Virus record (IMG/VR): IMGVR_UViG_3300022752_000133 | Span: 1-43,654 of that record | Reading direction: 5' to 3' (one strand) | Length of the DNA stretch: 43,654 nt | DNA from: a virus | In this document: positions 3,505-25,910 of the stretch, in pieces | Numbering within the stretch: position 1 is the stretch's first letter | Layout: every line of letters begins with the position of its first letter | The notes under the pieces: generated by a model | Told to the model about the DNA's origin: nothing | What the model saw: the letters and a program-made list of their open reading frames with translations, nothing else | The model's database searches: none | Program-made: the position numbers and the translations under genes

Positions 3505-4641
3505 ATGAGAAGAATTCTCGGAGTTGCAGGCACTACTGGCGGAGTTCCCGGAGCGCCAATAATTGGCTCAGCAACTGCTGAAAATGGTCAAGCCACAGTT
3601 TCATTTACACCTCCTGCTTATACGGGAAAAGGCGGAACAGTTACATATCGCGCCATATCCAGTCCTGGAGGTATTTCTGCGACGTCTACTTCATCTCCAA
3701 TTACAGTCACTGGTTTAACTAATGGAACAGCCTATACATTCACAGTTCGCGCAGAAACGTCATACGGAGTCAGCAGCGCTGCATCTTCTAATTCCAATAG
3801 CGTCACGCCAGTTAGTCCACCTTCATACAGTTTGTCTGCAACACTTTTTTCAACTCAAAACTGGACAGTGCCTAACGGAGTTTCAAAGATTGCCGTCTAT
3901 ATGTTTGGAGGTGGCGGCGGTGGCTCAGCTGGTGGAGGCTCGCCATATTTCTTAGGTGAAGGTGGCGGCGGTGGTGGAGCAGGGTCTGGGTCTGCATTCA
4001 AAGACTATCCTGTCACTCCTGGAACTACGTATTCTGTCACAATAGGTGCTGGCGGTAACGCTAGTTCAGCAGGAGGGCAGTCGTCATTTGGAAATCTTGC
4101 AAATTCCGGTAGCGGGAATGGTGGAAGTATTGCAAGCTTTAACGCAGGTGTCGGTGGAAGCGGAAACACTGGAACGTCTAACTTAGCAAATTTTGTGACA
4201 ATAACTGGTGCAAGTGGTGGCAACGGTGGTCTTTCTGGCGCGTACGAGTCTGGCACTAATGACGGATCTCCTGGTAATGCTGGAAGCGCTTCTGGCACAT
4301 TGACACTAAATGGTACAGGACTAACTTCTTACACTCACGGTGGCGGTGGCGGTGGCGGTGGCGGTGGCGGTTACGCAATTTTTCAACAGCAAGGAAGTAA
4401 CGCTAGCGGTGGAAGCGGCGCTGCTGGGGCAAGCAACGGCGGTAATGGAGGTGGCGGCGGTAACGTTAGCTTTAATGGGTCACAAAATGTTGGAAACGCG
4501 GGAGGCGCAGCAAATGCCCCAGCTGGCGGTGGCGGAGGTGGCGGTGGCGGCGGATACCTTGGCGGTGCCGGCGGAACAAACTCAGGCAACGGTGGAGTTG
4601 GCGGTGCAGGCCGTGTCTATATTTATACTTCTGCAAATTAA
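3505..4641 (+). CDS. FN3 plus polyglycine adhesin (paralogue 1)
   Basis: A 378-residue member of a seven-gene family. It has a short MRRILGVAG leader, a fibronectin type III domain at about residues 15-105 (GSATAENGQATVSFTPPAY to TYTFTV), then LSATLFSTQNWTVPNG leading into a long glycine-rich domain (residues 130-365) with runs of 7-12 glycines, a central SFGNL motif, and the end RVYIYTSAN. This matches the glycine-rich phage adhesin class whose polyglycine II helices form the receptor-binding tip, as in T2- and S16-type gp38; that assignment is by analogy. The start has no ribosome site but a TATAGAAT box. A 59-nt stretch of the FN3 is nearly identical in the 9485 gene. Confidence 0.8.
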   Translation: MRRILGVAGTTGGVPGAPIIGSATAENGQATVSFTPPAYTGKGGTVTYRAISSPGGISATSTSSPITVTGLTNGTAYTFTVRAETSYGVSSAASSNSNSVTPVSPPSYSLSATLFSTQNWTVPNGVSKIAVYMFGGGGGGSAGGGSPYFLGEGGGGGGAGSGSAFKDYPVTPGTTYSVTIGAGGNASSAGGQSSFGNLANSGSGNGGSIASFNAGVGGSGNTGTSNLANFVTITGASGGNGGLSGAYESGTNDGSPGNAGSASGTLTLNGTGLTSYTHGGGGGGGGGGGYAIFQQQGSNASGGSGAAGASNGGNGGGGGNVSFNGSQNVGNAGGAANAPAGGGGGGGGGGYLGGAGGTNSGNGGVGGAGRVYIYTSAN

Positions 4642-4704: not shown

Positions 4705-4738
4705 AAGCATACGGGGAGACTTCTCATTGGAGTCTTAG

Positions 4739-7700
4739 TTGTCACCGAAGCATCGCGCTCAAAAACTTGCGCTCGCTACTTTCCTTGCGACAGGTTACTT
4801 AGCTTTTACGCCTTCTTCGTCTTACGCGGAAGAGCCTCCAGCTTCTTCCGGCACCTCGCAAGATCCAGCTCCAACGACTGGATCAACGCAGACTTCCACA
4901 TCAACTGGCTCTCCAACTCCTTCATCTTCAACCTCTGGGGCGTCGACCACAGGTACCCAAGAACAATCCCCGTCAACAAGCAATACAACGCAAACAACAT
5001 CTCAAGAATCGACATCTTCTACTCCTCCAAGTCCTGGTCCCACTGCATCTCAGACTTCTCAAGAACCTTCGACAAGTTCAGCACCAACAGGTACGTCGCC
5101 AGAGCCATCGTCAGGATCGACACAAACGCAGCAGCAAGAATCTTCTTCACCAAATAATCCTACACCTGCGGTGATTCCACCGACTGATCCAGTCACCCCG
5201 CCACCTCCTCCCACAAACCAGGAGCTCGTTAACCAAGCACAGGCAACCGTAACCGCACAAAGTGCAATACTTACCGAGGTTTCTGCAACCTCCTCCGCAT
5301 TGCCAAACCCACCTGCCGAATCTACAACGACTGCAATTACTACTGCTCAAACAGCATTGGCCGACGCTCAAACGGCCGTGACTGCCGCTCAAACCGCCGT
5401 CACGACCGAGAACGCAGCGCAAACAACCCTAACCCAAGCGCAGTCAACCTTAACCACCGCAACCCAAGCAGTTGCCACCACGACCCAGACTTTAACAACC
5501 GCACAGGCAGAAAGCACTCAAGCACAGGCGGCGGTGACAGTGCAGACAGCAGTTGTTGCAACTGCCCAGGCAGATGTTACTCAAAAGACCGAGACTCTTA
5601 ATCAAGCAACTCAGGCGGTAACAACACAGACAGCGGTTGTAGCTGCGGCGGAGACAAATCTCACTCAAGCACAAACAACTCTTACCCAGGCAACTCAGGC
5701 AGTTACTACTCAACAAGGTGTTGTTACTCAGGCAACTACAGAGGCTCAAACAGCTCAGGCAGCGGCTGATGCATCTAACACAACTACCAACGTTGTGCGC
5801 ACTGAGACATTTAACAATAACCAGGTAAATAACTCGTCAGGCACTGGTGCAGTTTCCATTACCGTTAACAACAACCCCGTATCAACTCAAAATCAAAACG
5901 GAGTGTACATCTCTGGCGGTTGGACGACTGGCGACCCTAACGCAGTATCTGGCTCTGCGCTCGTATTACAAGGTCCTTCCGCTACAACAACGATTCAATT
6001 TCTTAATACTGCTGACACAGCCGTGTCCAAAGTTGAGTTTGGCGTCTACGCAAAGAACGGCGATGGCACCGCAACCACACGTTATACAGACGGAACAACA
6101 TCTAACTTTGTTATTGAAAATAACGTAGGAACACAAAACGGTCAGCAAAACACAACCTACACTCACACTGAAACAATTGTAGCTCCTGAGGGCAAGAAGA
6201 TTCATCAAATTGAAATCGCGCCCGACTGGGATTACTACATCATTGACAATATTAAGGTCACGACAACTACCACAACGTCTGATCCAGCGCTCGTTGCAGC
6301 GGCTCAAAGCGCACAGGCAAATGTCACGACACAAACAACTACCTTAACAACACTGCAAACTCAGCAGGTAGCCGCACAGACCGCGGTATCTACCGCACAG
6401 ACAGTTGTTACTCAGGAGACCCAGACTCTCACGACTCTCCAAACTCAGCAGGCAACTGCCCAAACTAACCTTACCGCTGCTCAAACAACGTTAACCAATG
6501 AGACCAATACTCTAACAACGTTGCAGGCAACCGCAACCCAAAAGGACGAGGCAGTCGCAACAGCCCAAACGGCAGTTGTAGCAGCCCAGACTTCCGCAGC
6601 TCAGGCAACCGTTGCCGTTACTACCGCTCAAACAAACTTAACCGCTGCGCAGGCAGCAACCACACAGGCAGTTACCGTTATGCAGGAAAAGGTAACTCTC
6701 GCGCAGCAGGCAGTTACAGTTGCAGATATTCATACAGATATTGACGCTGCGCAAAATCAGATCAACCAAAAGACCCAACAGGCACAAGATAACAACACGA
6801 CAGCTCAGGCAGCTCCTGTGATTGCTCAAGCACAGGCAGCGGTTGATTCTGCACGTATTGTTGCGGATGCAGCATTAACTGCTGTTCAAAGTGCAATCTC
6901 ACAAAACACGTCTGCTCCTACCGAGACCCAAGCTCAAGCTCAGGTAACACAGGCACAGTCCAATGTCGCCACAGCTCAAACGGCAGTAACAACAGCCGAG
7001 ACAAATGTCTCAACTGCGCAGACAGCAGTTGCAACAGAGCAGGCTCAGGTTACTCAAGCTCAGCAAGCAGTTGCAGCCGCACAGGCAGCAGTTGACTCAG
7101 TGACAACGTCTGGTGTTCAGGCAAAGGTTTATAACAACGCTGGATACAACGCTGCCCCTCCGCTTCCTGGCGACAATCGCCTTATTGCGACTACGACAGT
7201 TAACAACATTCAATTTAGCTGGGGCTCAGGTCAAGTTCTTGGAACTTTATCCGAGGACGTTGCCGTTAAGTTTACTGGCCAACTTACCGCTCCAGTTTCT
7301 GGAACAATTTACTTCTACGCTCCCGCGGACGACGGAACAATTCTTCAACTTGACGGCAATACCGTCATCAATGACTGGTATGACAAGGGAGGCGGCGGAA
7401 ACGTTCGCACCTACACGGTTGTTGCAGGCGACCCGATGGATATGACATTTTGGTTCTATGAAAACGGCGGCGGCGCTCACGTTAACCTGATGTGGAATAT
7501 TGGCAACGGCTGGCAGACAATTCCTGCAAGTGCCTTTACTCAATCCAATGCGACCCTTGAGCAAATAACCGCGCTCTCAACTGCAAATAATAACTTGACC
7601 CTTGAGACCCAGCAACTCGCTCAAGCGCAAGGTACTCTTTCTAGCGCGCAGTCAACTCTATCAACTGCGCAGACAAATCTCACCAGCGCGCAGTCTACAC

Positions 7701-9277
7701 TCACCAACGCGCAGTCAACTCTCACGGCTGCACAAACTGCAGACGCATCCGTTGTTGCCGCGTCAACTGCGGTTGCAGCTGCAACCACTGCAATTAACGT
7801 TGCAGAGACATATACCGATTCTCTTGACGCAAACATTCACGCAACACTAACTCCAACCATCACAGACACAGAAACATCAAGCGGATCTATTACAGTTACG
7901 GTAACTCCTCCGCCTGGAGTTGTGGCAAATACGTGGTTTTATCAAGTTGTATCATCAAATCCAAATGCGTTAAATCCATATGTAAATGGAACCTGGAATA
8001 CGGACGGTGCTCCTGAGTCATTTACGATCTCAGGTTTATCAAACGGAGTAACCTACACAGTTCGCGTTGCTCACTGGAACGGAAACGTTAGTTCATATAC
8101 TGAAGTAGAAGCGACACCTATTTCTCCAACTGTTCAACCAGTTGTTGTTCCAGAGACTCCATCAACTCCTAATACAGAGCCAGAGCCAGAACTTCCACCA
8201 GTCGAGGACCCATCAACTCCTGATGAAGAGCCAGAGCCAGAGCCAGAGCTTCCACCTACAGAAGATCCAGAGCCAGAAACGCCTGAAGATCCAGATCCTT
8301 CAGAAGAGGATCCTACTTCTCCTGACGATCAACCCCAGCCAGACGCTGAAGACTCTGAAACAGAAACTCCACCAAGCGAAGAACCATCTGACCCAGAAAC
8401 ATCAGAAGACCCCCAGACAAAGCCAGAAACAGAGCAACCAGAAGAGCCGGTAGACCCACAACCAGAAGAGGAAGAGCCAACACCAACGCCGCCAACCGAC
8501 GAAAAACCAACAACACCAGAGCCTCCTAAGGAAGAGCCTAAACCTGAACCTAAGCCAGATACTACACCAAAAGAAGAAAAAGTAAACAACCTCAATGATG
8601 CGCTTAAGGACGGACAGGTAACTCAAAAGGAAGCACAGCAACTTATCCAGCAAATCACCGGCGGAGACAGTCAACCTCTTACCGCCTCTGAAAAGACTGC
8701 AGTTGCCGCTGTTCTTGTTGCTGCGTTTACAGGCTCAGGTGACGGTGCAGTTCCTGCCTCCGCGCTCGCAGATGCTGGAATTAAGGCAAAGGATCTCCCA
8801 CCCGACACCCCCGTTGAGCTTGCAAACGGTGTTGTAATCGTTGCCGAGGTTCAAGCAGCATTTGAAGTCCTTGCAGATCCAGGAGAATTAGCTGCGGCGA
8901 TCTTCTCAGATCCAGGACAAGTTCTCACCGCTCTCTCAAATCTCGGAGCTGACATGTCACCCGAAGAGCGTGAGGAATCACAAAAGGTTGTTGTTGCATC
9001 TGTAGTCGCGGCGGGCGTTGCAGTCCAAGCAGCTGCGGCTGCGGCAACATCTGCAGCAACAGCTGCCGCGTCTACTTCATCATCGTCATCTGGCTCAAGC
9101 TCAGGCTCCCGCTCGCGCTCGTCAAGTGGCGACTCAGGAATGCCTGGCGGTCGCGAAGGTGGAACTGTAAAGCGTCGTCGCGCAACGTCAAAGGCAAAAC
9201 CTAAGGCAAAACCCAAGAAGGCAGTTAAAAAGTCCGGTAGAATACGCCGTATCCGTCTAAGGAGAAAACCAGTATGA
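4739..9277 (+). CDS. 1512-residue exported multidomain stalk protein with PA14 domain
   Basis: The TTG start has GGAG 6 nt upstream. Order along the protein: signal peptide (about 1-30, positive KHRAQK, hydrophobic core, cut near SSSYA); Ser/Thr/Pro-rich linker (31-160); Ala/Gln/Thr heptads of the AQTAVTT type (about 165-350); a beta-sandwich domain (351-509, ending DWDYYIIDNIKV); more heptads (515-785); a PA14 carbohydrate-binding domain (790-935, FTGQLTAPVSGTIYFYAPAD, DDGTILQLDG); coiled coil; FN3 domain (1039-1129); Pro/Glu stalk (1134-1279); helical domain; an Ala/Val segment that could span the membrane (about 1418-1446); Ser/Arg stretch; and a very basic tail. The layout is that of a cell-surface adhesin with lumenal repeats and a cytoplasmic basic anchor. 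Its presence in a phage suggests display on the infected host. ATGA overlap couples it to the 9274 gene. Confidence 0.8.
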   Translation: MSPKHRAQKLALATFLATGYLAFTPSSSYAEEPPASSGTSQDPAPTTGSTQTSTSTGSPTPSSSTSGASTTGTQEQSPSTSNTTQTTSQESTSSTPPSPGPTASQTSQEPSTSSAPTGTSPEPSSGSTQTQQQESSSPNNPTPAVIPPTDPVTPPPPPTNQELVNQAQATVTAQSAILTEVSATSSALPNPPAESTTTAITTAQTALADAQTAVTAAQTAVTTENAAQTTLTQAQSTLTTATQAVATTTQTLTTAQAESTQAQAAVTVQTAVVATAQADVTQKTETLNQATQAVTTQTAVVAAAETNLTQAQTTLTQATQAVTTQQGVVTQATTEAQTAQAAADASNTTTNVVRTETFNNNQVNNSSGTGAVSITVNNNPVSTQNQNGVYISGGWTTGDPNAVSGSALVLQGPSATTTIQFLNTADTAVSKVEFGVYAKNGDGTATTRYTDGTTSNFVIENNVGTQNGQQNTTYTHTETIVAPEGKKIHQIEIAPDWDYYIIDNIKVTTTTTTSDPALVAAAQSAQANVTTQTTTLTTLQTQQVAAQTAVSTAQTVVTQETQTLTTLQTQQATAQTNLTAAQTTLTNETNTLTTLQATATQKDEAVATAQTAVVAAQTSAAQATVAVTTAQTNLTAAQAATTQAVTVMQEKVTLAQQAVTVADIHTDIDAAQNQINQKTQQAQDNNTTAQAAPVIAQAQAAVDSARIVADAALTAVQSAISQNTSAPTETQAQAQVTQAQSNVATAQTAVTTAETNVSTAQTAVATEQAQVTQAQQAVAAAQAAVDSVTTSGVQAKVYNNAGYNAAPPLPGDNRLIATTTVNNIQFSWGSGQVLGTLSEDVAVKFTGQLTAPVSGTIYFYAPADDGTILQLDGNTVINDWYDKGGGGNVRTYTVVAGDPMDMTFWFYENGGGAHVNLMWNIGNGWQTIPASAFTQSNATLEQITALSTANNNLTLETQQLAQAQGTLSSAQSTLSTAQTNLTSAQSTLTNAQSTLTAAQTADASVVAASTAVAAATTAINVAETYTDSLDANIHATLTPTITDTETSSGSITVTVTPPPGVVANTWFYQVVSSNPNALNPYVNGTWNTDGAPESFTISGLSNGVTYTVRVAHWNGNVSSYTEVEATPISPTVQPVVVPETPSTPNTEPEPELPPVEDPSTPDEEPEPEPELPPTEDPEPETPEDPDPSEEDPTSPDDQPQPDAEDSETETPPSEEPSDPETSEDPQTKPETEQPEEPVDPQPEEEEPTPTPPTDEKPTTPEPPKEEPKPEPKPDTTPKEEKVNNLNDALKDGQVTQKEAQQLIQQITGGDSQPLTASEKTAVAAVLVAAFTGSGDGAVPASALADAGIKAKDLPPDTPVELANGVVIVAEVQAAFEVLADPGELAAAIFSDPGQVLTALSNLGADMSPEEREESQKVVVASVVAAGVAVQAAAAAATSAATAAASTSSSSSGSSSGSRSRSSSGDSGMPGGREGGTVKRRRATSKAKPKAKPKKAVKKSGRIRRIRLRRKPV
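4806..5015 (-). CDS. Possible antisense gene: small membrane/coiled-coil protein
   Basis: This 69-residue frame lies wholly antisense to the start of the stalk-protein gene. It reads MSILEMLFALYCLLTGIVLG, one clean transmembrane helix, then a charged amphipathic helix (KMKELESQLMWKSALIQSLE) and a basic tail RKTKKA, the form of a spanin-like or anchored coiled-coil protein. On the minus strand GGAGGAG stands 6 nt before the ATG. Against it: the plus strand here codes Ser/Thr/Pro runs, whose antisense frames are often open and hydrophobic, and the SD is the complement of a Pro-Pro codon pair. Both genes could be real; this one is uncertain. Confidence 0.35.
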   Translation of the reverse strand: MSILEMLFALYCLLTGIVLGYLWSTPQRLKMKELESQLMWKSALIQSLELDLARCRKKLEALPRKTKKA

Positions 9278-9468
9278 ACCTATTAAAAGACATCTTTCGC
9301 GACATCACAGACCAGGCGTGGACGCTCCTGGGCATGTTCGTGGCGTGGCTTGTCCTTGACGGATCTGCAAGAACCATCACAGGATATGCCATCATGGCAA
9401 CAACTCTCTTTTGGATTATCACATATCCAATTCGCAATCCTAAGGATTCTGAAGACACCGAAGAATAG
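9274..9468 (+). CDS. Small two-helix membrane protein, holin-like
   Basis: A 64-residue protein beginning MNLLKDIFRDITDQAWTLLG. Hydrophobic segments lie at about residues 15-29 (WTLLGMFVAWLVL) and 33-51 (ITGYAIMATTLFWIITYPI), with an acidic tail KDSEDTEE. The ATG overlaps the stop of the stalk-protein gene (ATGA), with AAGGAG about 9 nt upstream, so the two are translationally coupled. It may help insert or anchor its large partner, or act as a holin; the sequence does not decide. Confidence 0.7.
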   Translation: MNLLKDIFRDITDQAWTLLGMFVAWLVLDGSARTITGYAIMATTLFWIITYPIRNPKDSEDTEE

Positions 9469-9484: not shown

Positions 9485-10597
9485 ATGCCAATTCTAGGAA
9501 GTACAGCAGGCGGAACTAAAGGAGCTCCTTCATCTCCTATAATTGGAACTGCCACAGCTGGAAACGCGCAAGCAACTGTAACATTTACCTCTCCTAGCTT
9601 TTCAAAACTTCCTATTACTTCTTATACTGTTACTTCGTCTCCCGGCGGGATAACAGCAACAGGTGCTTCATCTCCAATTATAGTCACTGGTTTAACTAAT
9701 GGAACTGCCTATACATTCACAGTTACAGCCAGCAGCTCTTCAGGAACATCTCAGCCTTCATCAGCTTCTAACAGTGTAACTCCAGTTATTCCAACTTACA
9801 CTTTAGCTCAAACGTACAACAACTCGACGACTTACACAGTTCCGGCAGGAGTAACTAAGATAGCGGTGTACGCTTTTGGCGGAGGCGGTAACGGTGGTAA
9901 TGGGGCAAGCGGTTCTACTTCAGCACAATCAGGCGGTGGCGGTGGCGGTGGCGGTAGCGGAGGCGTAGGAGCATTTCAAGAATACTCTGTGTCAAGCGGG
10001 CAAACTTATCTAGTTACAGTAGGCGGAGCTACAGGCGCTTCTAGTTTTGGAAACTTATTAACTGCTAATGGTGGTAACAGCGGCGCAGCTGGAAATACTG
10101 GTGGAAGTGCTAGCAATGCAGGAGGAAATGGCGGAACTGTAACATCAAATGTTGTTGGATTTGTTTCTGTTTCTGGTCAAAGCGGAGGCCAAGGCGGAGG
10201 CGCTGGAACTAGTCGTAATAGCCCTAATGCTGGAACAGCGGGATCAAACATAACTTTGAATGCCACAGGACTAACAACGTACACTACACCTGGAAGCGCG
10301 GGTGGAGGCGGTGGCGGTGCACAAGCGACTGGCGGTGGAGCAAGCAATGGAACTGCTGGTGCAGCAGGATCAACTCCTAGCGGCAACGGTGGTTCTGGCG
10401 GAAATCAAAGTGGACAAAATGGAAATGCAAATGCTGGTGGCGCAGGAAATAATTCTACAGGTATTGGTGGTGCAGGTGGCGGCGGCGGTGGCGGCGCATA
10501 TATCGCTTTCGGTGGGCCAAATGAAGTTCCTGGAGCAAGTGCAGGAGGCGGCGGAGGATCAGGATCTGCTGGTAGAATTTATGTTTATCAAATTTAA
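9485..10597 (+). CDS. FN3 plus polyglycine adhesin (paralogue 2)
   Basis: A 370-residue paralogue starting MPILGSTAGGTKGAPSSPII. FN3 domain about residues 14-100; then LAQTYNNSTTYTVPAGVTKI and a glycine-rich tip with several runs of 5-7 Gly, SFGNLLTANGG in the middle, ending GRIYVYQI. Positions 9666-9724 match 3689-3747 of paralogue 1 at 57 of 59 bases, far above the identity elsewhere between the two genes, suggesting recent recombination. It follows the holin-like gene by 16 bp. The role is inferred as a tail-tip receptor-binding protein. Confidence 0.8.
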   Translation: MPILGSTAGGTKGAPSSPIIGTATAGNAQATVTFTSPSFSKLPITSYTVTSSPGGITATGASSPIIVTGLTNGTAYTFTVTASSSSGTSQPSSASNSVTPVIPTYTLAQTYNNSTTYTVPAGVTKIAVYAFGGGGNGGNGASGSTSAQSGGGGGGGGSGGVGAFQEYSVSSGQTYLVTVGGATGASSFGNLLTANGGNSGAAGNTGGSASNAGGNGGTVTSNVVGFVSVSGQSGGQGGGAGTSRNSPNAGTAGSNITLNATGLTTYTTPGSAGGGGGGAQATGGGASNGTAGAAGSTPSGNGGSGGNQSGQNGNANAGGAGNNSTGIGGAGGGGGGGAYIAFGGPNEVPGASAGGGGGSGSAGRIYVYQI

Positions 10598-12066: not shown

Positions 12067-13044
12067 CTATTTAGCGTAGACAATAACTTGTCCAGCGTAC
12101 CCTGACGCTCCGGACGTAGGTTGTCCGTAGACATATGTGATGTTGTTTCCGACAGCGATTCCAACACCACCACCACCTCCACCTCCACCTCCACCGCCTG
12201 CAGCGTTAGCAGCGCCAGCACCACCAGCATTTCCATTTCCATATGGATATCTTACGTTTTGTCCAGGATCTCCATAGGCAGGATTTTCTCCACCATGAGA
12301 AGAACCATTTCCACCAGTTCCTCCTCCAGCCCCATTAGTTCCTCCTGCAGATCCTCCATCTGCACCAAAAGCAGAGTTTGCCATGTTTGCTCCGCCGCCG
12401 CCACCACCGCCAGCACCAGCACTTTTAGTTACAGCGCCAAGCCCTGTGTACGTATCGTTTATAGTTGCTGTAGCGCCATTACCTCCAGCATATCCGCCTT
12501 GAGCTCTCCAGTATCTAAATCCAAAGTTTCCACCAGTTCCACCGGCTGCTGTAGCATTTACATATCCAGAAATGTTTGTTGAGTAATTGCCAGAAGTTCC
12601 TCCAGCTCCTCCACTCGTGTGAAGACCACCGTTGCCACCGTTTGCTCCATTTACAGTAATTAAGTTTCCAAAAACTGTCTGTCCTCCAGCGTTTCCAGCG
12701 TTGCCACCAAAGTTTGTATTTGAAGGTGACGTTCCACCAGTGCCACCGTTGCCTGCTGATCCAATAGTAATAGAAAAACTCTGACCAGCAGAGACAGGAT
12801 AGTCTTTGGCGCTTATTACATATCCACCACCGCCGCCACCACCGCCAGCGGGGCCTTCCGCTTGAGTGAATTTATTACTTTGAAAACCGCTTCCGCCTCC
12901 TCCACCTCCACCAGCTCCAACTACAAGAACTGCTAACGCTGTTTTACCAGCAGGTACAGTATACGTTCCACTTGTATTGAATGTTTGACTTAATGCATAA
13001 GGCATCTCGGTGTAACCGGATGAGACAGTTCCAAGTATTGGCAT
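12067..13044 (-). CDS. Polyglycine adhesin without FN3 (paralogue 3)
   Basis: A 325-residue leftward paralogue starting MPILGTVSSGYTEMPYALSQ. It lacks the FN3 domain and goes straight into TFNTSGTYTVPAGKTALAVL and then a glycine-rich tip with runs up to 11 Gly, the VFGNLITVNGANGG motif, and the end GQVIVYAK. The start has no Shine-Dalgarno but TATAGAAT 9 nt before the ATG. It resembles the 20664 and 24972 genes in domain layout but has the MPILG start of the FN3 group. A receptor-binding tail-tip protein is inferred. Confidence 0.8.
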   Translation of the reverse strand: MPILGTVSSGYTEMPYALSQTFNTSGTYTVPAGKTALAVLVVGAGGGGGGGSGFQSNKFTQAEGPAGGGGGGGGYVISAKDYPVSAGQSFSITIGSAGNGGTGGTSPSNTNFGGNAGNAGGQTVFGNLITVNGANGGNGGLHTSGGAGGTSGNYSTNISGYVNATAAGGTGGNFGFRYWRAQGGYAGGNGATATINDTYTGLGAVTKSAGAGGGGGGGANMANSAFGADGGSAGGTNGAGGGTGGNGSSHGGENPAYGDPGQNVRYPYGNGNAGGAGAANAAGGGGGGGGGGGVGIAVGNNITYVYGQPTSGASGYAGQVIVYAK

Positions 13045-13129: not shown

Positions 13130-14290
13130 TTACTTTACAGGGGCAAACTTGTGCTTCTTTGCCATTGCATTGTACTTTGCCTTTAAGGTAGCAAGTGCCT
13201 TATCAACCGCTGCCTTAGCTGCGGTCATATCTGCAAGCGCCTTATCAGCTGCGACCTTGGCGTCTGCTGCTGCCTTAGCTGCTGCGTCAGCTGCCGCCTT
13301 AGCCTTTACAGACTCTGCGGCGATGGCATCAGCCACTGCCTTTGCCTTATCTGCATCTGCAGCTGCCTTTGCGGCCAATGCATCAGCCTTAGCCTTTGCG
13401 TCTGCATCTGCCATTGCCTTCTTGGTTGCGTCATGCGCAGCCTTTTCAGCGGCCAATGCAGCGTTAGCTGCAGCAAGCTCAGCAACAAGGTCACGTAGTG
13501 AAGTTGTGAATGCTACGGTTGAAACTGGCGCAGCAAAACCTGCTACGGCGTTTGCAACTGTTGCGTTAGCAACAACTACGATGCTTGATCCTGTAGCTGG
13601 AGCAAATACCTTGAGCTCAGCATTACCAAGTCCTACGGTTGCAGTCTCAACTGCGGTTGTAAGAGCCGCGGTGTTAAGTCCTGTCGCTGCGACTGTTGCG
13701 CCTGCAACTGTCGCGTTGATTGCAAGGCCTGAGACCTTGTTACCGAAGACGTCGGTTGCCGATAGGGTATAGGTGCCGATTGTTCCAGCGGCTAGGTTAG
13801 CAGGACCTGTAAGTGCAATTGCATTTGCAGCTCCAGCAGTTCCCTTCATATAAATCGTGTTTGTAACACCGAGGTTAGAAACGGTGATTGAACCTGTTGC
13901 AGTAGATGTCGTGAAGGCAAATACTGTAGCGGTTGTACCTGTTCCTGTAGCTACGGTGAGAGATGATACACCATCAGCAGCGCGAACACGAGTGCCTGCT
14001 GGGTTATCAAGAGCAGTGACAAGCTTAATTGCGCCACTTGCGGTGAATGTTACTGATGTGCCTGTATCAACTGTTGCCACAAGACGAACGGCGTCCGCCT
14101 CGTCAACAGTGTTATCTGCAGGAACGGTTACAGCAGCTGGAGCAAGTGCAGTTGTTGCATTTGATCCTGCCACGGCAGCGCCGACCTTAACAGACAGTGA
14201 CATGTCTGCAGCGCTTGAAGGAGCAGCGGCCACTGCGCCAAGACCAAGCGCCATAGCAGCAGCCACGGCGATAGAACGGATTAACTTCAT
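13130..14290 (-). CDS. Exported Ala-rich protein with Ig-like and helical regions
   Basis: A 386-residue protein. MKLIRSIAVAAAMALGLGAV with the cleavage-like APSSAAD is a clear Sec signal peptide. The middle (about 30-270) is Ala/Thr/Val-rich with Ig-like strands, including SATDVFGNKVSGLAINATVA, a pattern of bacterial Ig-like repeats. The last 110 residues are an Ala/Lys/Asp helix of coiled-coil type (for example KAKAAADAAAKAAADAKVAA) ending KKHKFAPVK. TAGGAGAC provides a strong ribosome site. It looks like an exported cell-surface or periplasm-facing protein of an actinobacterium, carried here by a phage. It may remodel or shield the host surface; this is inference. Confidence 0.75.
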   Translation of the reverse strand: MKLIRSIAVAAAMALGLGAVAAAPSSAADMSLSVKVGAAVAGSNATTALAPAAVTVPADNTVDEADAVRLVATVDTGTSVTFTASGAIKLVTALDNPAGTRVRAADGVSSLTVATGTGTTATVFAFTTSTATGSITVSNLGVTNTIYMKGTAGAANAIALTGPANLAAGTIGTYTLSATDVFGNKVSGLAINATVAGATVAATGLNTAALTTAVETATVGLGNAELKVFAPATGSSIVVVANATVANAVAGFAAPVSTVAFTTSLRDLVAELAAANAALAAEKAAHDATKKAMADADAKAKADALAAKAAADADKAKAVADAIAAESVKAKAAADAAAKAAADAKVAADKALADMTAAKAAVDKALATLKAKYNAMAKKHKFAPVK

Positions 14291-17789: not shown

Positions 17790-18170
17790 ATGGCACTACA
17801 TAATCACATTCTTATCAACGGTCGTGTTCACAACCCACCCAAGGACATTGACCAAACTATCCAATGGCTACGCGATCTCGTTGATGCCATTGACATGAAA
17901 ATTGTCCAAGGTCCTTTTGCGTCATACGTTGACAAGGAAGGAAACCGTGGTATCACAGCTGCGGTGATGATTGAGACCAGCCACATCGCCTTTCACGTGT
18001 GGGACGAGGAAACACCTGCGCTTCTACAGTTTGACCTTTACACATGCTCAACGCTACCTGTGCCAACCGTGTTAAGAATGATTGACGAGTACATGGAGTT
18101 TGAGTCATACAAGTATGTCGTCTACGAGAGGGCAAACGACTTCAACGTAGTCGAGACTGGCAAGTTCTAG
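17790..18170 (+). CDS. speD: S-adenosylmethionine decarboxylase-like proenzyme (SpeD)
   Basis: A 126-residue protein of the short prokaryotic SpeD class. The self-cleavage site is IETSHIAFHVW with Ser64-His65, followed by FDLYTCS with the conserved Cys86. In family members Ser becomes the pyruvoyl cofactor, and the enzyme forms decarboxylated SAM for spermidine synthesis. The residue before the cleavage Ser is Thr rather than the usual Glu, which lies one place further back. TAGGAGAGGCT gives a strong ribosome site. The downstream glycosyltransferase overlaps by one base. No partner spermidine synthase is visible, so decarboxylated SAM might go to the host pathway or to another use. Confidence 0.85.
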   Translation: MALHNHILINGRVHNPPKDIDQTIQWLRDLVDAIDMKIVQGPFASYVDKEGNRGITAAVMIETSHIAFHVWDEETPALLQFDLYTCSTLPVPTVLRMIDEYMEFESYKYVVYERANDFNVVETGKF

Positions 18171-19003
18171 TGTCCTACGCTACTCTTACGTCAGACGAGC
18201 TTTCCTTTCTCAAAGGCAAGCGTGTCATGATTGCAACACCTTGCTACGGTGGTCAAATCTCCGTCTACTACTTTAAGAGCTACCTCGATCTCATTGCACG
18301 CCTCAATACCTGCGGTGTCGATTACGTACTTTCCGCTATATCAAATGAAAGTCTTATCACGCGCGCGCGTAACACCATCGCGTCTAACTTTCTTACCTAT
18401 AAGGACGATAAGGGTAAACTTGACTACCTATTATTTATTGACGCGGATATACAGTTTCACCCAGACGCAGTTCTTAAGCTTCTTCTTCACGACAAGGACA
18501 TCGTTACTGGCGCTTATCCAATGAAGGTCATTGACTTTACCAACATTGAAAATCAAGCTCTACCAGCTCAAGAACTTGCGGTGCAGGTTACGAGCTACGC
18601 CATCAACTTAAAGTTTGACTCCGAGGAACAACGTGAAAACGGGCAACTCCGTCTCAAGGACGGTCTTCTCGAACTTGTTGATGGAGCCACCGGGTTTATG
18701 CTTATTAAGCGTCACGTTTTAGAGACGATGCGTGATGCAATGCCTCAACTTGCATATACAAATGACGCGGTGACAGTTAACCTTGATGGTACGAGCGAGA
18801 TTAAAAAGATCAATCACTACGCGTTTTTTGACACCATGATTGATCCAAAGGACAATCGCTATCTCTCAGAGGACTACGCATTTTGCCGTCGCTGGCAACA
18901 ACTTGATCCTGGAAATAAGGTTTGGCTTGATCCGTTTATTAAACTCAACCACGTTGGAAATCACATCTTCCAGGGAAGACCTTTAATTAAGGGTGAGGAC
19001 TGA
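18170..19003 (+). CDS. GT-A-fold glycosyltransferase-like protein (second copy)
   Basis: A 277-residue protein with GTG start overlapping the SpeD stop by one base. It has the strand VMIATPCYGGQISVYYFKSY, then SLITRARNTIASNF, the DxD site LLFIDADIQFHPD (D91, D93), DIVTGAYPMK, GATGFMLIKRHV, and the acidic motif SEDYAFCRRWQQLDPGNK followed by WLDPFIKLNHVGNHIF. This is the same order as the 1208-1900 gene, so both are members of one phage family. It most likely transfers a sugar from a nucleotide donor. The acceptor is unknown. The 3' end overlaps the convergent thioredoxin gene by 21 bp. Confidence 0.8.
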   Translation: MSYATLTSDELSFLKGKRVMIATPCYGGQISVYYFKSYLDLIARLNTCGVDYVLSAISNESLITRARNTIASNFLTYKDDKGKLDYLLFIDADIQFHPDAVLKLLLHDKDIVTGAYPMKVIDFTNIENQALPAQELAVQVTSYAINLKFDSEEQRENGQLRLKDGLLELVDGATGFMLIKRHVLETMRDAMPQLAYTNDAVTVNLDGTSEIKKINHYAFFDTMIDPKDNRYLSEDYAFCRRWQQLDPGNKVWLDPFIKLNHVGNHIFQGRPLIKGED

Positions 19004-19305: not shown

Positions 19306-20514
19306 TTAATATTCATAAATACGAATTTGTCCACCTAGTCCAGCGCCACCAGGTGCACCGCTTCCAGCAATTGGAATACCATAAACATCACGGTACCCTC
19401 CACCGCCGCCTCCACCGCCTCCTCCACGTGAATTTGCATTACTTCCAGAATTTGGTTCAGCAGTTGGTCCGTTTGGCGTATTTTTTACACCACCATTTCC
19501 ACCAGATACTCCAAATGACCCTCCACTTCCACCAGCTCCTGCGCTAACAGATGCGCTAACTGAATATGCTCCGCCACCACCGCCACCGCCACCTGATGGC
19601 ATTTGGTAATTAACAGAGTTAACTCCACCTCCACCACCAGTTAAGTTCATAACTAATGCTCCAGCAGCACCTGCCGAGGCTCCGCCAGAAGTACCAGTAC
19701 CTGGGTTATTTTTTGGTGTAGCACCATTTCCACCAGACCCGCCTGTTCCTGCCTGGTTACCAACAACATTTTCTGTAAAGTTTCCACTCGTTCCAGGTGA
19801 TCCTACAGCATTGATGCTTGACGCACTTCCACCACCTCCGCCACCGCCACCATTAACTGTAATAATATTACCAAAGGATGTTACACCACCACTATTTCCA
19901 TTTCCTCCGCTGGCTCCATTACTATTTCCTCCAGGACCAGCATTTCCACCATTACCACCAGACCCAACTGTAACAACATAATTTTGTCCAGCACTTACGT
20001 TATAGCTATCTAATAACCATGCATATGTTCCAGCACCACCGCCTCCGCCTCCGCCAGAAGTATCATTGATACCTAATGAACCGCCGCCTCCGCCGCCGCC
20101 GCCGCCTGCTCCTTGCACTACTAATGCTATTTTTGTTTTACCTGATGGTACTGTGTACGTCGTAGATGAATTATATGTTTGCGCAAGAACCCACTGTTTC
20201 GGGCTAGGGGTTATTGAGTTAGAAGCCGATGAGGCAGATGACGTTCCAGCAGAGCTTACTGCAGCTATAGTAAATGTATAAGCGGTTCCATATGCAAATG
20301 AGCCAGTGACAGATACAGGAGAAGAAGTACCTGTTGTGCTAAGTGCTATTGATGGACTAGATGTAACCGTGTAAGAAGTAATAGGTAATTTAGAAAAAGG
20401 CGCTGTAAAGGATAAAGATACTGTAGTTGCATTAGTTACTGTTGCAGTTCCTACCGTTGGAGCTGAAGGCACGACACCTTTTCCACCAGAAGAAGCATTC
20501 CCAAGTATAGGCAT
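19306..20514 (-). CDS. FN3 plus polyglycine adhesin (paralogue 4)
   Basis: A 402-residue paralogue from MPILGNASSGGKGVVPSAPT; an in-frame ATG 18 nt upstream has no support, while GGAAGGGAAG precedes this start. FN3 domain about residues 17-105, linker WVLAQTYNSSTTYTVPSGKT, then the longest glycine-rich tip of the family, with runs up to 9-10 Gly, TSFGNIITVNGGGGG, and the end GQIRIYEY. It is in an operon with the 52-residue gene and paralogue 5 upstream, and with thioredoxin downstream, an odd mix for tail genes. Confidence 0.8.
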   Translation of the reverse strand: MPILGNASSGGKGVVPSAPTVGTATVTNATTVSLSFTAPFSKLPITSYTVTSSPSIALSTTGTSSPVSVTGSFAYGTAYTFTIAAVSSAGTSSASSASNSITPSPKQWVLAQTYNSSTTYTVPSGKTKIALVVQGAGGGGGGGGGSLGINDTSGGGGGGGAGTYAWLLDSYNVSAGQNYVVTVGSGGNGGNAGPGGNSNGASGGNGNSGGVTSFGNIITVNGGGGGGGGSASSINAVGSPGTSGNFTENVVGNQAGTGGSGGNGATPKNNPGTGTSGGASAGAAGALVMNLTGGGGGVNSVNYQMPSGGGGGGGGAYSVSASVSAGAGGSGGSFGVSGGNGGVKNTPNGPTAEPNSGSNANSRGGGGGGGGGGYRDVYGIPIAGSGAPGGAGLGGQIRIYEY

Positions 20515-20515
20515 C

Positions 20516-20674
20516 TTACTTCCCTTCCACAATCTTCATGATAAGCATATAAGCTCCAAGTGCATTCATAAACCCAGGTTTATCAAGTAGCGGCTTGATC
20601 TCTTTCTCAATCTCAAGTGCAAGCTCTTCTCTGTCTACCATACTTGCGGTGATAGTTTCATATTTATTTGACAT
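20516..20674 (-). CDS. Small hypothetical protein between two adhesins, 52 residues
   Basis: The frame begins MSNKYETITASMVDREELAL and continues with EIEKEIKPLLDKPGFMNALG to MLIMKIVEGK. Its ATG lies 11 nt inside the end of paralogue 5 (overlapping frames), and its stop is one base before the start of paralogue 4. The helical, charged content and exact fit between two genes support it. Such placement recalls phage adhesin-specific chaperones or assembly factors such as T4 gp57A or gp38-type helpers, but no homology is recognised. Confidence 0.65.
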   Translation of the reverse strand: MSNKYETITASMVDREELALEIEKEIKPLLDKPGFMNALGAYMLIMKIVEGK

Positions 20675-21530
20675 AGACAACTACTTTTCCTGTTGCTCCG
20701 TTTCCACCAGGTCCTTGGCTTGCTCCTTGGCCTTCTGCTCCAGTTGCAAGCGCTCCACCGCCACCACCACCGCCACCAGTGTTTGCAGTTCCAGAGCCAC
20801 CAGCTCCACCGTTTCCTCCAGTATTTAGTTGACCAGTTCCTCCTTGGCCACCAGATCCACCACCAAGTGTACCACCAGCTCCGCCACCGGCTCCACTTCT
20901 AATTTCGTACGGTCCTCCTCCGTTGTTAGTATAACCGTCGCCACTTCCAAAGCGAGGAGAAGCTGGAGCCCCGCTGCCTCCTCCGCCGCCGCCTGCTGTT
21001 GCAGAACTTACAAATCCAGCAGAGTTAAAGTTTAATGTATCTCCATTTCCACCAGCACCTCCAGGGTTAGGATTATTTCCTCCTGGATTATTTCCTCTAT
21101 TTCCGCCAGCTCCTCCGCTGCCACTTACTGCACCGCCAACGTTAGATGATCCATTTCCACCACTTCCTGGAGGACCACCGTTAGATGAGCCGCCATTTCC
21201 ACCATTAGCAAATAATAGACTTCCAAAAGAAGTTTGCCCTCCTGCATTCGCGCTGCTTGCAGTATTTCCACTTGAACCTATTGTTACAGAATAATTAGCA
21301 CCTGGAGTAACATCATAATCAATGAAAGAAGCAATACCTCCACCGCCTCCACCAGTTCCTCCGTTTACAGGTCCTTGCCCACTACCACCACCGCCGCCAC
21401 CAACTGCGTACACAGCGAGTTTAGTTTTTCCAGCAGGTACAGTATAAGTGCCACTTGCATTAAATGTCTGGCTTAATTCATAAACCTGCTCAACGTATCC
21501 AGAGGATACGGTTCCTAAAATACGTGCCAT
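20664..21530 (-). CDS. Polyglycine adhesin without FN3 (paralogue 5)
   Basis: A 288-residue protein from MARILGTVSSGYVEQVYELS. No FN3; the leader goes straight to QTFNASGTYTVPAGKTKLAV and a glycine-rich tip with shorter Gly runs, SFGSLLFANGGNGG, and the end GKVVVYVK. The start is the ATG at 21530; a TTG three codons upstream is possible. GATACAAT lies 9 nt before the ATG and there is no ribosome site. Its first 84 bases are about 90% identical to those of paralogue 7 (24972 gene), including a 35-nt exact match. Confidence 0.8.
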   Translation of the reverse strand: MARILGTVSSGYVEQVYELSQTFNASGTYTVPAGKTKLAVYAVGGGGGGSGQGPVNGGTGGGGGGIASFIDYDVTPGANYSVTIGSSGNTASSANAGGQTSFGSLLFANGGNGGSSNGGPPGSGGNGSSNVGGAVSGSGGAGGNRGNNPGGNNPNPGGAGGNGDTLNFNSAGFVSSATAGGGGGGSGAPASPRFGSGDGYTNNGGGPYEIRSGAGGGAGGTLGGGSGGQGGTGQLNTGGNGGAGGSGTANTGGGGGGGGALATGAEGQGASQGPGGNGATGKVVVYVK

Positions 21531-21539
21531 AGTAGGCAA

Positions 21540-21547: not shown

Positions 21548-21620
21548 TTACCTACCCGTGTTTTACTTTAGTCCTCCAGCCCTATACTATTATGCCACAA
21601 TGACGAAAGGAAGAACAACA

Positions 21621-22712
21621 ATGTCCCGTAACTCTAAGGCGCTCGTAACCATACTGGCGCTCGCACTTTCAAGCCCCGCTCCAGCTCAGGCGTGGTGGTC
21701 AATAGGTCTTCACTCACGCGAAAGGCTTGTGATTGATGGCGAGCTACACCTAAACGCAAACTCGTATTTCAACGTCTCCGTAGACGAGCTTACTAAATCT
21801 CTTGAGATTGGTAAAAAGGTCGCGGTGATTAACTCCGGCGGTGTAATTGACAAGATCATAACTGTCACCGAGACTACAGATCTTTCAACTGTCTTTGCTA
21901 CTGCTCAACTCCCAGACTCTGGCGGAGTCAAGTACACCGACGAGAACGGCGTAGTTCGTCTTGACGCAATTAACCAAGGCGACATCGTCACGGTTGAAAC
22001 TAGCGAAGGCACAAAGACAATCAACGACAAGCTCGATCTCACAAATCAACCTGTTGTTTCAAATCCTAACCCTGAGCCTACAGGTACTCCCGTAGCGGAT
22101 GCAAATGCGTCAACAATAACTGCGCTTACAGTTTCAAGCAACAACTCGACGTCCATCACCGTCACGCCTCCTGCGGCAACGGATAATACAAGCGTGTCTG
22201 TTACGGTCGTGACAGATGGCCGCTCTCATACATCTGTAGGAACTGATAACGCAGGTACTCCCGTAACCATAACGGACGTTCCTGCTAACTCAAACGTAAC
22301 GGTTCAAACTACGATTACCGATAACACAACAGGTCAGTCAACGACTGTTCAAAATCCAGTTGTTACCACACCTGCGGTGACAGTTCCAACTCCAACGCCT
22401 GCTCGCGATGAGGCAGTTGATAAGGCAACTATTTCCCAGCCTGCGGTTACGTCTCAAGGAGAAGGATCAAACGGACACCGCTCTGCAAACATACAGGTTC
22501 CAGAGATTCCAAACTTTGATTCCTCAAAGACAAGCGTTCAACTTGTTATTGTTGACAAGACAGGCGCAACTACCGCGATGGGTCTTGGCGGAGAGGGCGG
22601 AGTCATTACAGTTGACTGGCTATCTCCAACTGAGTCCTATACAATTAAGGTTGTGATTCGCGACCTTGGGACAGGGAGCGAAACCTCTATAGCAGGTACG
22701 CGTCTGCCATAG
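21621..22712 (+). CDS. Exported Ig-like Thr/Val-rich protein
   Basis: A 363-residue protein from MSRNSKALVTILALALSSPA with signal cleavage near PAQA-WWS. AAGGAAG lies 8 nt before this ATG, which decides it over the ATG at 21600. The mature part has a strand-rich N-terminal domain (HSRERLVIDGELHLNANSYF), then Thr/Val/Asn-rich segments resembling FN3 or Ig-like repeats (SSNNSTSITVTPPAATDNTS), a Pro/Thr linker TPTPAR and a C-terminal beta domain. A strong terminator follows. It is the third exported beta-rich protein in the window. Cell-surface location in the infected cell is inferred. Confidence 0.75.
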   Translation: MSRNSKALVTILALALSSPAPAQAWWSIGLHSRERLVIDGELHLNANSYFNVSVDELTKSLEIGKKVAVINSGGVIDKIITVTETTDLSTVFATAQLPDSGGVKYTDENGVVRLDAINQGDIVTVETSEGTKTINDKLDLTNQPVVSNPNPEPTGTPVADANASTITALTVSSNNSTSITVTPPAATDNTSVSVTVVTDGRSHTSVGTDNAGTPVTITDVPANSNVTVQTTITDNTTGQSTTVQNPVVTTPAVTVPTPTPARDEAVDKATISQPAVTSQGEGSNGHRSANIQVPEIPNFDSSKTSVQLVIVDKTGATTAMGLGGEGGVITVDWLSPTESYTIKVVIRDLGTGSETSIAGTRLP

Positions 22713-22770: not shown

Positions 22771-23859
22771 TTATCGAACGTAGACTAAGACTTGGCCAGT
22801 GCTTCCTCCGCCACCTCCACCATGTCCTCCATCTCTTCTATTTGTAAAACCTCCAGGGTTATTTACTCTTATTCCTGAGCCTCCACCACCACCGCCACCG
22901 CCAGACGAGCCTGTACCTCCAGGAGAACCACTGTTTGCAGTTACGTCACTTGCTCCACCAGGTCCACCTGAAGAGCCGTTACCAGCACTTCCTCCGTTTC
23001 CGCCTCCTGTACTGCCACCTGATCCGCCAGACTGTCCACTGAATGGAAGAACACTTACATCAGTTACATCTCCAGATGCTCCACCTCCACCACCACCGCC
23101 ACCAGAAAAAGATGTTAAACCAAGAGAGTTGTATGTTAGCGTCCATCCACTTCCACCAGCGTTTCCAGGAGTACCGTATGAACCATTTACTCCATTTGCT
23201 CCAGCTCCTCCACTACCAGTAAGTCCACCAGAAACATTTGTTGACCCACTTCCACCATTTCCACGCGTAAAGTTAGATGCAGCATTTCCTCCATTTGCTG
23301 TTCCTAAGTTTCCAAAGTTTGTAGTTCCAGCAACTCCACCAACAGTAACAGTAAAGGTATCATTTGGATTTACATTGTAGTCCTTAAACGCAAATGAACC
23401 TCCTCCACCTCCACCAGCACCAGAGATAAAGAACGCGTTAGCGGGACCACCTCCACCTCCACCACCTCTTGCATATACTGCAATCTGAGTTTTACCAGCG
23501 GGGACTGTATAAGTTCCAGATGAATTAAACGTTTGAGATAAAGCATATGATGGTAAGACGGGAGTTACTGCAGAAGACGCAGAAGACACAGAACCTTGAA
23601 CTCCAGAAGAAGACGCAGTAACTGTAAATGTGTAAGCTGTATCGTTTGTTAGCCCTGTTACAGTAATAGGACTAGATGAACCTGATGCAGTTATGCCGCC
23701 TGGAGACGAGGTTACAGTGTATGTTACTGCGCCTTTGCCAGTGTACGCCGGAGGTGTAAAAGAAACAACTGCTTGCGCATCACCTGCTACAGCTGAAATA
23801 CCCGTAGGTTGTCCAGGGAGACGACCAGATTGCGATGAACTACTGCCTAAGATAGGCAT
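22771..23859 (-). CDS. FN3 plus polyglycine adhesin (paralogue 6)
   Basis: A 362-residue paralogue, MPILGSSSSQSGRLPGQPTG onward. FN3 domain about residues 15-105 (GDAQAVVSFTPPAYTGKGAV closely resembles paralogue 1), linker YALSQTFNSSGTYTVPAGKT, glycine-rich tip with TNFGNLGTANGG and the end GQVLVYVR. It starts 10 nt after the stop of the 23870 gene with no ribosome site, so it is probably cotranscribed with that structural gene. Confidence 0.8.
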   Translation of the reverse strand: MPILGSSSSQSGRLPGQPTGISAVAGDAQAVVSFTPPAYTGKGAVTYTVTSSPGGITASGSSSPITVTGLTNDTAYTFTVTASSSGVQGSVSSASSAVTPVLPSYALSQTFNSSGTYTVPAGKTQIAVYARGGGGGGGPANAFFISGAGGGGGGSFAFKDYNVNPNDTFTVTVGGVAGTTNFGNLGTANGGNAASNFTRGNGGSGSTNVSGGLTGSGGAGANGVNGSYGTPGNAGGSGWTLTYNSLGLTSFSGGGGGGGGASGDVTDVSVLPFSGQSGGSGGSTGGGNGGSAGNGSSGGPGGASDVTANSGSPGGTGSSGGGGGGGGSGIRVNNPGGFTNRRDGGHGGGGGGSTGQVLVYVR

Positions 23860-24971: not shown

Positions 24972-25826
24972 TTATCTAGTGTAAACAACTATCTTGCCAC
25001 TACCTCCAGCACTTCCGTTTTGGCTTCCTCCGCCTGGCCCATTAGGTTGTACTCTTCCACCTCCGCCTGCACCTCCACCTCCACCTCCTGAGTTGACAGA
25101 GCCGGCATTTCCGCTATTGCCAGCATTGGCAATACCAAATTTTTGCGCTGAGCCACCTTGCCCACCATTACCTCCACCATTACCTCCAGTAGAACCTTGA
25201 CCTCCTGATCCAGTATTTCCAGGAGTAGTGTTATTAGCCATACCGCCGCCGCCGCCTCCACCGCCGCCACCGCCTGCTTGAAAACTAGGAATATCATTAC
25301 TTATAAAGCTAACTACTGAGCCATTTCCAGCCCCACCATACGCACTAGCAGGGTCACCATCACCAGTTTCGGTAGCAGCAGCGCCTGACGGTCCTCCACT
25401 CCCACCCGAGCCAGTTGACACAAAAGTGTTTATGTTATTTGACGTTACGGTTCCGCCGCTTCCGCCAGAAAAACTTTGACCTGTGTTAGAAGAAGTTCCA
25501 CTGCTACCCGACGCTAAAGTAACTAAGTTACCAAAAGCAGTATTCCCATTAGAAGCACCAATTGTTATCGTGTAGTTTTGGCCAGGTGACACAGGGTAAT
25601 CTTCAAAAATATAAACAATTCCACCGCCGCCTCCACCGCCACCTCCACGAATTCCAGTAGTTGCATTTGCTGCGTTTCCACCACTACCACCGGCCCCTAT
25701 CATTGCAACTGCTATCTGAGATTTTCCTGCTGCAACGGTGTATGTGCCACTTGCATTAAATGTCTGGCTTAATTCATAGGCAGGTTCAACATATCCAGAT
25801 GATACCGTTCCTAAAATACGTGCCAT
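24972..25826 (-). CDS. Polyglycine adhesin without FN3 (paralogue 7)
   Basis: A 284-residue protein from MARILGTVSSGYVEPAYELS; a longer frame to 25877 adds a hydrophobic stretch but has no support. The tip contains runs of 8-12 Gly, TAFGNLVTLASGSSG and the end GKIVVYTR. TATACAAT lies 6 nt before this ATG. It shares its 5' 84 bases with paralogue 5, while the tips differ strongly, as expected for conserved attachment and variable receptor-contact regions. Confidence 0.8.
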   Translation of the reverse strand: MARILGTVSSGYVEPAYELSQTFNASGTYTVAAGKSQIAVAMIGAGGSGGNAANATTGIRGGGGGGGGGIVYIFEDYPVSPGQNYTITIGASNGNTAFGNLVTLASGSSGTSSNTGQSFSGGSGGTVTSNNINTFVSTGSGGSGGPSGAAATETGDGDPASAYGGAGNGSVVSFISNDIPSFQAGGGGGGGGGGGMANNTTPGNTGSGGQGSTGGNGGGNGGQGGSAQKFGIANAGNSGNAGSVNSGGGGGGAGGGGRVQPNGPGGGSQNGSAGGSGKIVVYTR

Positions 25827-25832
25827 AGGATA

Positions 25833-25840
25833 ATTGTATA
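25833..25840 (-). promoter_or_regulatory. TATACAAT box before paralogue 7
   Basis: On the minus strand TATACAAT ends 6 nt before the ATG at 25826, with no ribosome site between. Confidence 0.45.
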
Positions 25841-25910
25841 TTAAAAGCAAGATCAAGACTAAGTAAGAATAATCCACTTTTGATAGTATCTTCTTAACCC
25901 AAGGAGACCT

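Follow-up and report, generated by a model that had tools for sequence, protein, structure and literature searches.

A long exported stalk with a conserved membrane anchor and its small membrane neighbour: a candidate cell-envelope module in phages

The window, by which is meant the whole 43,654-base stretch of DNA analysed here (IMG/VR viral record IMGVR_UViG_3300022752_000133), carries genes including those for RNR, primase, WhiB, a CHAP endolysin and SNase. Since whiB is an accepted marker of actinophages (PMC6802176), the presence of a WhiB gene leads us to infer an actinobacterial host for this virus. On the plus strand, an open reading frame with a TTG start (4739-9277) encodes the large protein of 1512 residues considered here, hereafter the stalk, and its last 4 nt are overlapped by the open reading frame of a second, much smaller membrane protein, TM64 (9274-9468). 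The features of the two genes are as follows:

4716-4736, +: 8-bp RNA hairpin immediately ahead of the TTG, with the ribosome-binding site GGAG (4729-4732) inside it (centroid fold)
4739-4828, +: signal sequence, residues 1-30, candidate cleavage SSYA/EE (sequence pattern, also in relatives)
4829-5218, +: Ser/Thr/Pro-rich linker, residues 31-160 (composition)
5318-5773, +: Ala/Gln/Thr helix 1, residues 194-345 (AlphaFold2 model)
5780-6277, +: beta domain 1, residues 348-513 (model; homologues in 7 other members)
6284-6730, +: Ala/Gln/Thr helix 2, residues 516-664 (AlphaFold2 model)
6809-7099, +: helix 3, residues 691-787 (AlphaFold2 model)
7103-7546, +: PA14 domain, residues 789-936, with Asp864-Asp865-Gly866 (Pfam, model, Foldseek)
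7556-7849, +: helix 4, residues 940-1037 (AlphaFold2 model)
7856-8134, +: FN3-like domain, residues 1040-1132, likely but marginal (E 4.6e-5, below gathering score)
8141-8578, +: Pro/Glu-rich linker, residues 1135-1280 (composition)
8567-8944, +: helical juxtamembrane domain, residues 1277-1402 (model; unmatched in the libraries searched)
8945-8986, +: GADMSPEEREE, the most conserved stretch, within residues 1403-1416 (alignment of relatives)
8987-9043, +: membrane-spanning segment, residues 1417-1435, within a helix at 1408-1444 (hydropathy, model)
9071-9274, +: C-terminal tail, Ser-rich and then strongly basic (composition; predicted disordered)
9274-9468, +: TM64, a 64-residue two-helix membrane protein with an ATG start, obligate neighbour and presumed partner of the stalk (sequence, linkage)

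The initial annotation had described an exported protein in which a Sec signal peptide, long Ala/Gln/Thr segments, a beta domain (351-509), PA14 (790-935), FN3, a Pro/Glu stalk, a membrane-crossing segment and a very basic tail follow one another, and this order was recovered with one reservation. By pattern, the signal sequence has a basic n-region, an h-region at about residues 10-23 and a candidate cleavage site at 30/31; by hydropathy it is weak, with a KD mean of 1.5 in the h-region against a crude cut-off of 1.8, and the same feature is often stronger in relatives. AlphaFold2 modelled the two Ala/Gln/Thr segments as helices and placed the beta domain and PA14 within a few residues of the limits first proposed, the latter being matched by Pfam at residues 801-920 (E 6e-9, 36.2 bits against a cut-off of 24). 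The Pro/Glu stretch lies where it was expected, the membrane segment is Ala-rich (KD 2.15) and falls inside a predicted 37-residue helix, and the basic tail holds 22 K/R against 2 D/E in 77 residues. The reservation concerns FN3, which went unfound in a scan of the whole protein and, although the isolated segment was matched, scored 24.0 bits, 1 bit below the curated cut-off of 25. No LPXTG-type motif was seen on direct reading ahead of the C-terminal hydrophobic segment, in the window protein or in aligned relatives. Matches to SMC and PgrA models of NCBIfam fell below their cut-offs, reflect coiled-coil composition and were set aside.

In the AlphaFold2 model, helices of 152 and 149 residues flank beta domain 1 and helices of 97 and 98 residues flank PA14, matched lengths that fit antiparallel arms with a beta domain at the tip. 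Each beta domain may thus end a coiled-coil arm, of about 22 and 14 nm, respectively, at 0.15 nm per residue; such arms are not demonstrated, and the model behind them rests on 20 sequences and has a pTM of 0.35.

Several other genes of the window deserve mention. Seven paralogous Gly-rich fibre-like genes, some with FN3, lie on both strands and share the N-terminus M(P/AR)ILG..SSG:

3505-4641, +: fibre-like paralogue, Gly-rich
9485-10597, +: fibre-like paralogue, Gly-rich
12067-13044, -: fibre-like paralogue, Gly-rich
19306-20532, -: fibre-like paralogue, Gly-rich
20664-21539, -: fibre-like paralogue, Gly-rich
22771-23859, -: fibre-like paralogue, Gly-rich
24972-25877, -: fibre-like paralogue, Gly-rich

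Invertible DNA around these paralogues was considered and rejected, the inverted repeats being mostly paralogous Gly-rich coding stretches and not clean recombination sites. A serine recombinase gene (31640-32119, +) adjoins collagen-like fibre genes; its resolvase domain is matched only from profile position 59, the N-terminal part being missing or elsewhere. Three further exported candidates are two proteins that have signal peptides and match no Pfam model (13130-14290, -; 21558-22712, +) and a small lipoprotein (25911-26135, +) encoded ahead of putative membrane and CHAP lysis genes. Additionally, there are two paralogous glycosyltransferase-like genes (phrog_1574; 1208-1900, - and 18170-19003, +) of possible relevance to surface glycans.

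Used as a query against viral contigs, the C-terminal 185 residues of the stalk retrieved at least 126 confirmed relatives, of which 80 were kept. These share the helical domain, the near-invariant GADMSPEEREE, the hydrophobic helix, within which Gly-Gln or Gly-Asn occurs in several groups, and a basic end that typically reads RRRKP or RRP; upstream stand a Pro/Glu-rich linker and then a variable exported part. In the AlphaFold2 model the domain is compact and wholly helical (pLDDT about 82-93 at best), and is followed by the 37-residue helix and a disordered tail. No convincing model of this anchor module exists in Pfam, PHROGs or NCBIfam, no match to it was found among 50,697 GenBank phages, its domain fold gave nothing significant against the PDB, and PADLOC matched neither the stalk nor the small protein. 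Similarly, a literature search, which had most subscription journals outside its reach, found no paper describing the module. Three UniProt entries from uncultured Caudovirales phages, A0A6J5NGG5, A0A6J5NEV5 and A0A6J5P6J9, do match the C-terminal module, by structure and with 26-46% in sequence. One of them is named a SUEL lectin protein; all are uncharacterised, being named by their ectodomain only or not at all, and their records describe neither anchor nor partner. The sequences are thus public, yet the module appears undescribed.

The suggestion that the small downstream protein is the partner of the stalk gained strong support from linkage. Of the loci that exceed 9 kb, all 69 have TM64 immediately after the stalk gene, the two mostly overlapping by 4 nt (gap mode -3); among shorter loci this holds for 11 of 12. 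TM64 used as the only query matched at least 588 stretches, and an anchor lay directly upstream in 78 of the 79 loci obtained in this way, the exception being cut by the end of its contig. Linkage is thus near-absolute in both directions, and TM64 is quite probably the physical partner of the anchor, the contact itself being inferred. In phages the protein has 54-66 residues with two hydrophobic segments, and D, Q, WT, LGM, AW, G.A, G, W, T and R are among its invariant residues. Beyond the pair, gene order varies between phage groups, some loci lying near lysis genes and others near terminase (L007, L044), which indicates that the stalk and TM64 genes move as a unit. TerL is present in 14 of 18 long records with stalk relatives and an integrase in only 2 of 25; from the latter figure it follows that display would mostly serve lytic infection.

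The pair also occurs on bacterial chromosomes, amid ordinary genes, in four genomes. A scan of genome contigs gave a single match with an anchor, in the actinobacterial MAG acMicro-4 (L082), where a lipoprotein-type stalk ending in HRRKP and its adjoining TM64 lie between an MFS transporter gene and sugar-metabolism genes. Three further cases, in genomes of 1.4-1.9 Mb, were found with a TM64 model in related genomes. In G892 (L167) the neighbours, as read from translations, are housekeeping genes (threonyl-tRNA synthetase, TrpD-like, cytochrome bc), and in G926 (L168) they are exported-protein and glycosyltransferase genes. The locus in G974 (L177) is rearranged: TM64 adjoins an anchor fragment of only 57 residues, and about 5 kb from it there is a complete stalk gene that bears this type of anchor. 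The layout of this stretch (G974:C114:5000-16000) looks as if stalk cassettes had been exchanged. In two cellular copies the membrane segment is only about 14 residues long. Such copies are rare, with 1 in 396 genomes of one order sample and 3 in about 200 of one family sample (two overlapping genome samples from the same family being counted once), and in a TM64 tree of about 48 columns the cellular tips group together with a support of 0.77.

The strongest case for a role in the cell envelope, and against a virion part or a lethal holin, comes from the occurrence of the pair in the absence of a phage. The proposal of the initial annotation, display on the infected cell, was borne out to the extent that relatives keep the N-terminal signal sequence, the C-terminal membrane helix and the basic tail, and that chromosomal pairs lie away from phage genes. 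Moreover, the search of phage and bacterial sequences did not find the relatives fixed as tail proteins, and the stalk is tied to structural genes by nothing except a weak PHROG tape-measure match. This match (phrog_339, residues 742-1013, E 7.7e-6), together with the fibre-like neighbouring genes, is what could be said for a virion protein, a tail fibre or tape measure, in which the N-terminus resembles a signal without serving export; the match, however, sits in a low-complexity coiled coil, covers 123 of 1123 profile positions and reflects coiled-coil composition, so that a tape-measure identity was rejected. A constant anchor with variable tips is the reverse of a tape measure, and the membrane anchor, the basic tail, the coupling to TM64 and the chromosomal copies would all go unexplained, leaving a virion protein hardly credible. 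The stalk and TM64 are read as a cell-envelope module rather than part of the virion, and the stalk is, by inference, very probably displayed on the surface of the infected cell; the weak hydropathy of its own signal sequence and the Ala-rich membrane segment, so short in two cellular copies, count against this.

A role in lysis could be argued from TM64, which in size and two-helix layout is like class II holins. It would be holin-like or antiholin-like, and the stalk would couple membrane and cell wall or sense superinfection so as to delay lysis. A CHAP endolysin gene lies no more than 1.5 kb downstream in 24 of the 69 loci, often with genes for a lipoprotein and other membrane proteins in between. 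No Pfam holin model matched TM64. Presence on the chromosomes of free-living cells would be unlikely for a killer protein, the pair stands elsewhere in other phages, as in those that carry it beside terminase, and the endolysin of the window lies 17 kb from the pair; a function in lysis is accordingly improbable. The anchor might instead be a tag for processing or attachment, with TM64 as the processing or receiving factor, much as in sortase or exosortase systems. A conserved motif, a hydrophobic stretch and a basic end do resemble such a tag, the membrane partner is dedicated, and G974 has a single TM64 for two genes that bear the anchor. The remaining three of the four host genomes, however, have just one convincing anchor gene, and TM64 is very short and its invariant residues lack a Cys/His/Ser pattern of a transpeptidase or protease, so that we give little credence to a sorting system.

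In contrast to the constant anchor, the tips vary, and comprise PA14, ITFG-type beta, window-type beta, L009-type and SUEL lectin domains. Among 129 complete or nearly complete stalks, from which redundancy was not removed, PA14-like tips occur in 67, of which 7 have a window-type beta domain as well; ITFG-type beta domains occur in 53 and the L009-type in 6, and 3 have none of the PA14, window, ITFG and L009 types. Of 45 stalks scanned, 8 contained SUEL lectin. The PA14 fold of the window protein matches sugar-bound MpPA14 in Foldseek (E 2e-7) as well as the yeast Flo/Epa lectins. In MpPA14 a motif of consecutive Asp residues coordinates the sugar-binding calcium (PMC8092209), and a DDG motif is present in all 45 distinct PA14 members, as Asp864-Asp865 in the window. 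The PA14 fold and calcium-binding Asp-Asp motif are thus shared with PA14 lectin adhesins (MpPA14 of the Marinomonas primoryensis adhesin, MhLap PA14, yeast Flo5/Epa), which differ in being cellular adhesins with other routes of secretion and anchoring, whereas the stalk is phage-borne and has a membrane anchor. The sugar binding first offered as one possible function is favoured both by this motif and by the SUEL lectin of other stalks, and the stalk tips probably bind sugars, although binding by the window copy is inferred.

A further peculiarity lies at the start of the gene. In several relatives the frame is open and a ribosome-binding site in place, yet no ATG, GTG or TTG precedes the signal sequence. 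Where starts were chosen by the best Shine-Dalgarno placement, and so predicted and not measured, 98 distinct stalk genes gave TTG 32 times, ATT 26, ATA 15, ATG 8, CTG 8, GTG 6 and ATC 3, and 38 of the 98 had no ATG, GTG or TTG in range. The same rule applied to 327 neighbouring genes gave 68% ATG and 11% ATT, ATA, ATC or CTG, an imperfect control in that these neighbouring reading frames had been called with an NTG start. Apparent examples of ATT, ATA, ATC or CTG starts behind a good AGGAG are L020:2501, L027:382, L046:7703, L091 and L096, and L029 has GTA at the aligned position. In Staphylococcus aureus, AUA and AUU starts yield about 10-30% of the output of AUG (PMC13009471). On the simplest reading, the rarity of ATG suggests that this very large surface protein is made in small or regulated amounts.

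RNA structure near the start is less clear. In the related L003 the GGAG is likewise enclosed, by a 7-bp stem that differs in sequence, and neither this hairpin nor that of the window is significant by whole-segment z-score, so that both are suggestive only. A second hairpin, CTGCG-N6-CGCAG, with 5 bp and placed 9 nt past the start codon's first base, is kept in 28 distinct relatives and absent from the stalk gene of the window. The inverted repeat is seen in L010, L014, L020, L052, L125 and others, with TTGCG/CGCAA in L052 and L125. Its stem is nearly invariant, with paired changes in only 2 cells, and covariation neither proves nor excludes a structure.

The architecture, the pairing, the cellular copies, the diversity of tips and the bias in start codons are read directly from the sequences, and there is good support, albeit without experiment, for a lectin-tipped stalk displayed by means of a new anchor and a partner dedicated to it. 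Opinion here is evenly divided on the broader reading, an undescribed two-part display system of helical anchor and obligate two-helix partner (54-66 residues in phages), common to phages and a few aquatic actinobacteria, with interchangeable glycan-binding heads and with phage genes kept at low output by AUU, AUA, AUC and CUG starts across many lineages. The best explanation overall, held only tentatively, is that of a two-gene cell-envelope module of freshwater-actinobacteria phages in which the stalk shields a glycan receptor. Specifically, the stalk would be exported by Sec, its C-terminal helix and positive tail keeping it anchored in the cytoplasmic membrane, and the Pro/Glu linker and coiled-coil arms would reach outward with sugar-binding tips. 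TM64, whose translation would be coupled to that of the stalk on a shared message, would most likely pack on the anchor and helical domain and so serve assembly or stabilisation. Owing to weak start codons, only a few copies per infected cell would bind envelope glycans. The preferred purpose is that the glycan receptor is thereby occupied or shielded, so that competing phages would fail to adsorb and progeny would not be wasted on cells already taken.

This purpose is inferred and no more than possible. The endolysin gene near 24 of the 69 loci hints at late expression, which fits poorly with early superinfection exclusion. A precedent for the working principle is PrgA/SEC10 of enterococcal conjugative plasmids (TIGR04320), likewise encoded by a mobile element, exported, and bearing a domain far from the cell: a surface-exclusion stalk of about 40 nm that keeps incoming elements out (PMC10588982). 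PrgA differs in that it presents a protease domain, is anchored to the cell wall and has no known TM64 partner, whereas the stalk has lectin tips. The parallel is one of principle and not of membership, the weak coiled-coil match of residues 941-1033 to the NCBIfam model TIGR04320 (32.3 bits against a cut-off of 70) being probably compositional. PblA and PblB of the Streptococcus mitis phage SM1 are phage-encoded, reach the bacterial surface and change adhesion; they resemble tail proteins and, unlike the stalk, lack its export and anchor architecture.

The displayed lectin might instead be pictured as an adhesin by which infected cells stick to particles, surfaces or cells not yet infected, whereby progeny would be freed beside new hosts, or which makes grazing harder. 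Bacterial and yeast adhesin PA14 domains are among the nearest fold matches, one chromosomal copy lies amid surface-protein and glycosyltransferase genes, and in uninfected cells that carry such copies adhesion makes more sense than phage exclusion. Weak start codons, however, imply few copies per cell, and the presumed actinobacterial hosts are tiny and free-living, for which aggregation gains little. Adhesion is therefore unlikely without being dismissed. How the stalk benefits the phage is not settled; the shielding of a glycan receptor ranks first, followed by adhesion and then by a link to lysis.

Known changes that phages make to the host surface come mostly from lysogenic conversion genes and small exclusion proteins. 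From the module it would seem that the construction of long sugar-binding stalks on infected cells is routine among phages of some of the most abundant freshwater bacteria, and the cassette of stalk and TM64 points to a widespread and overlooked remodelling of the host surface. The anchor and its TM64 partner, undescribed in the annotation libraries searched, constitute a new membrane-anchor family, and among the stalk genes near-cognate starts seem to be the usual case. Taken together, the pair makes receptor shielding or adhesion open to test in infections of hosts that are hard to grow.
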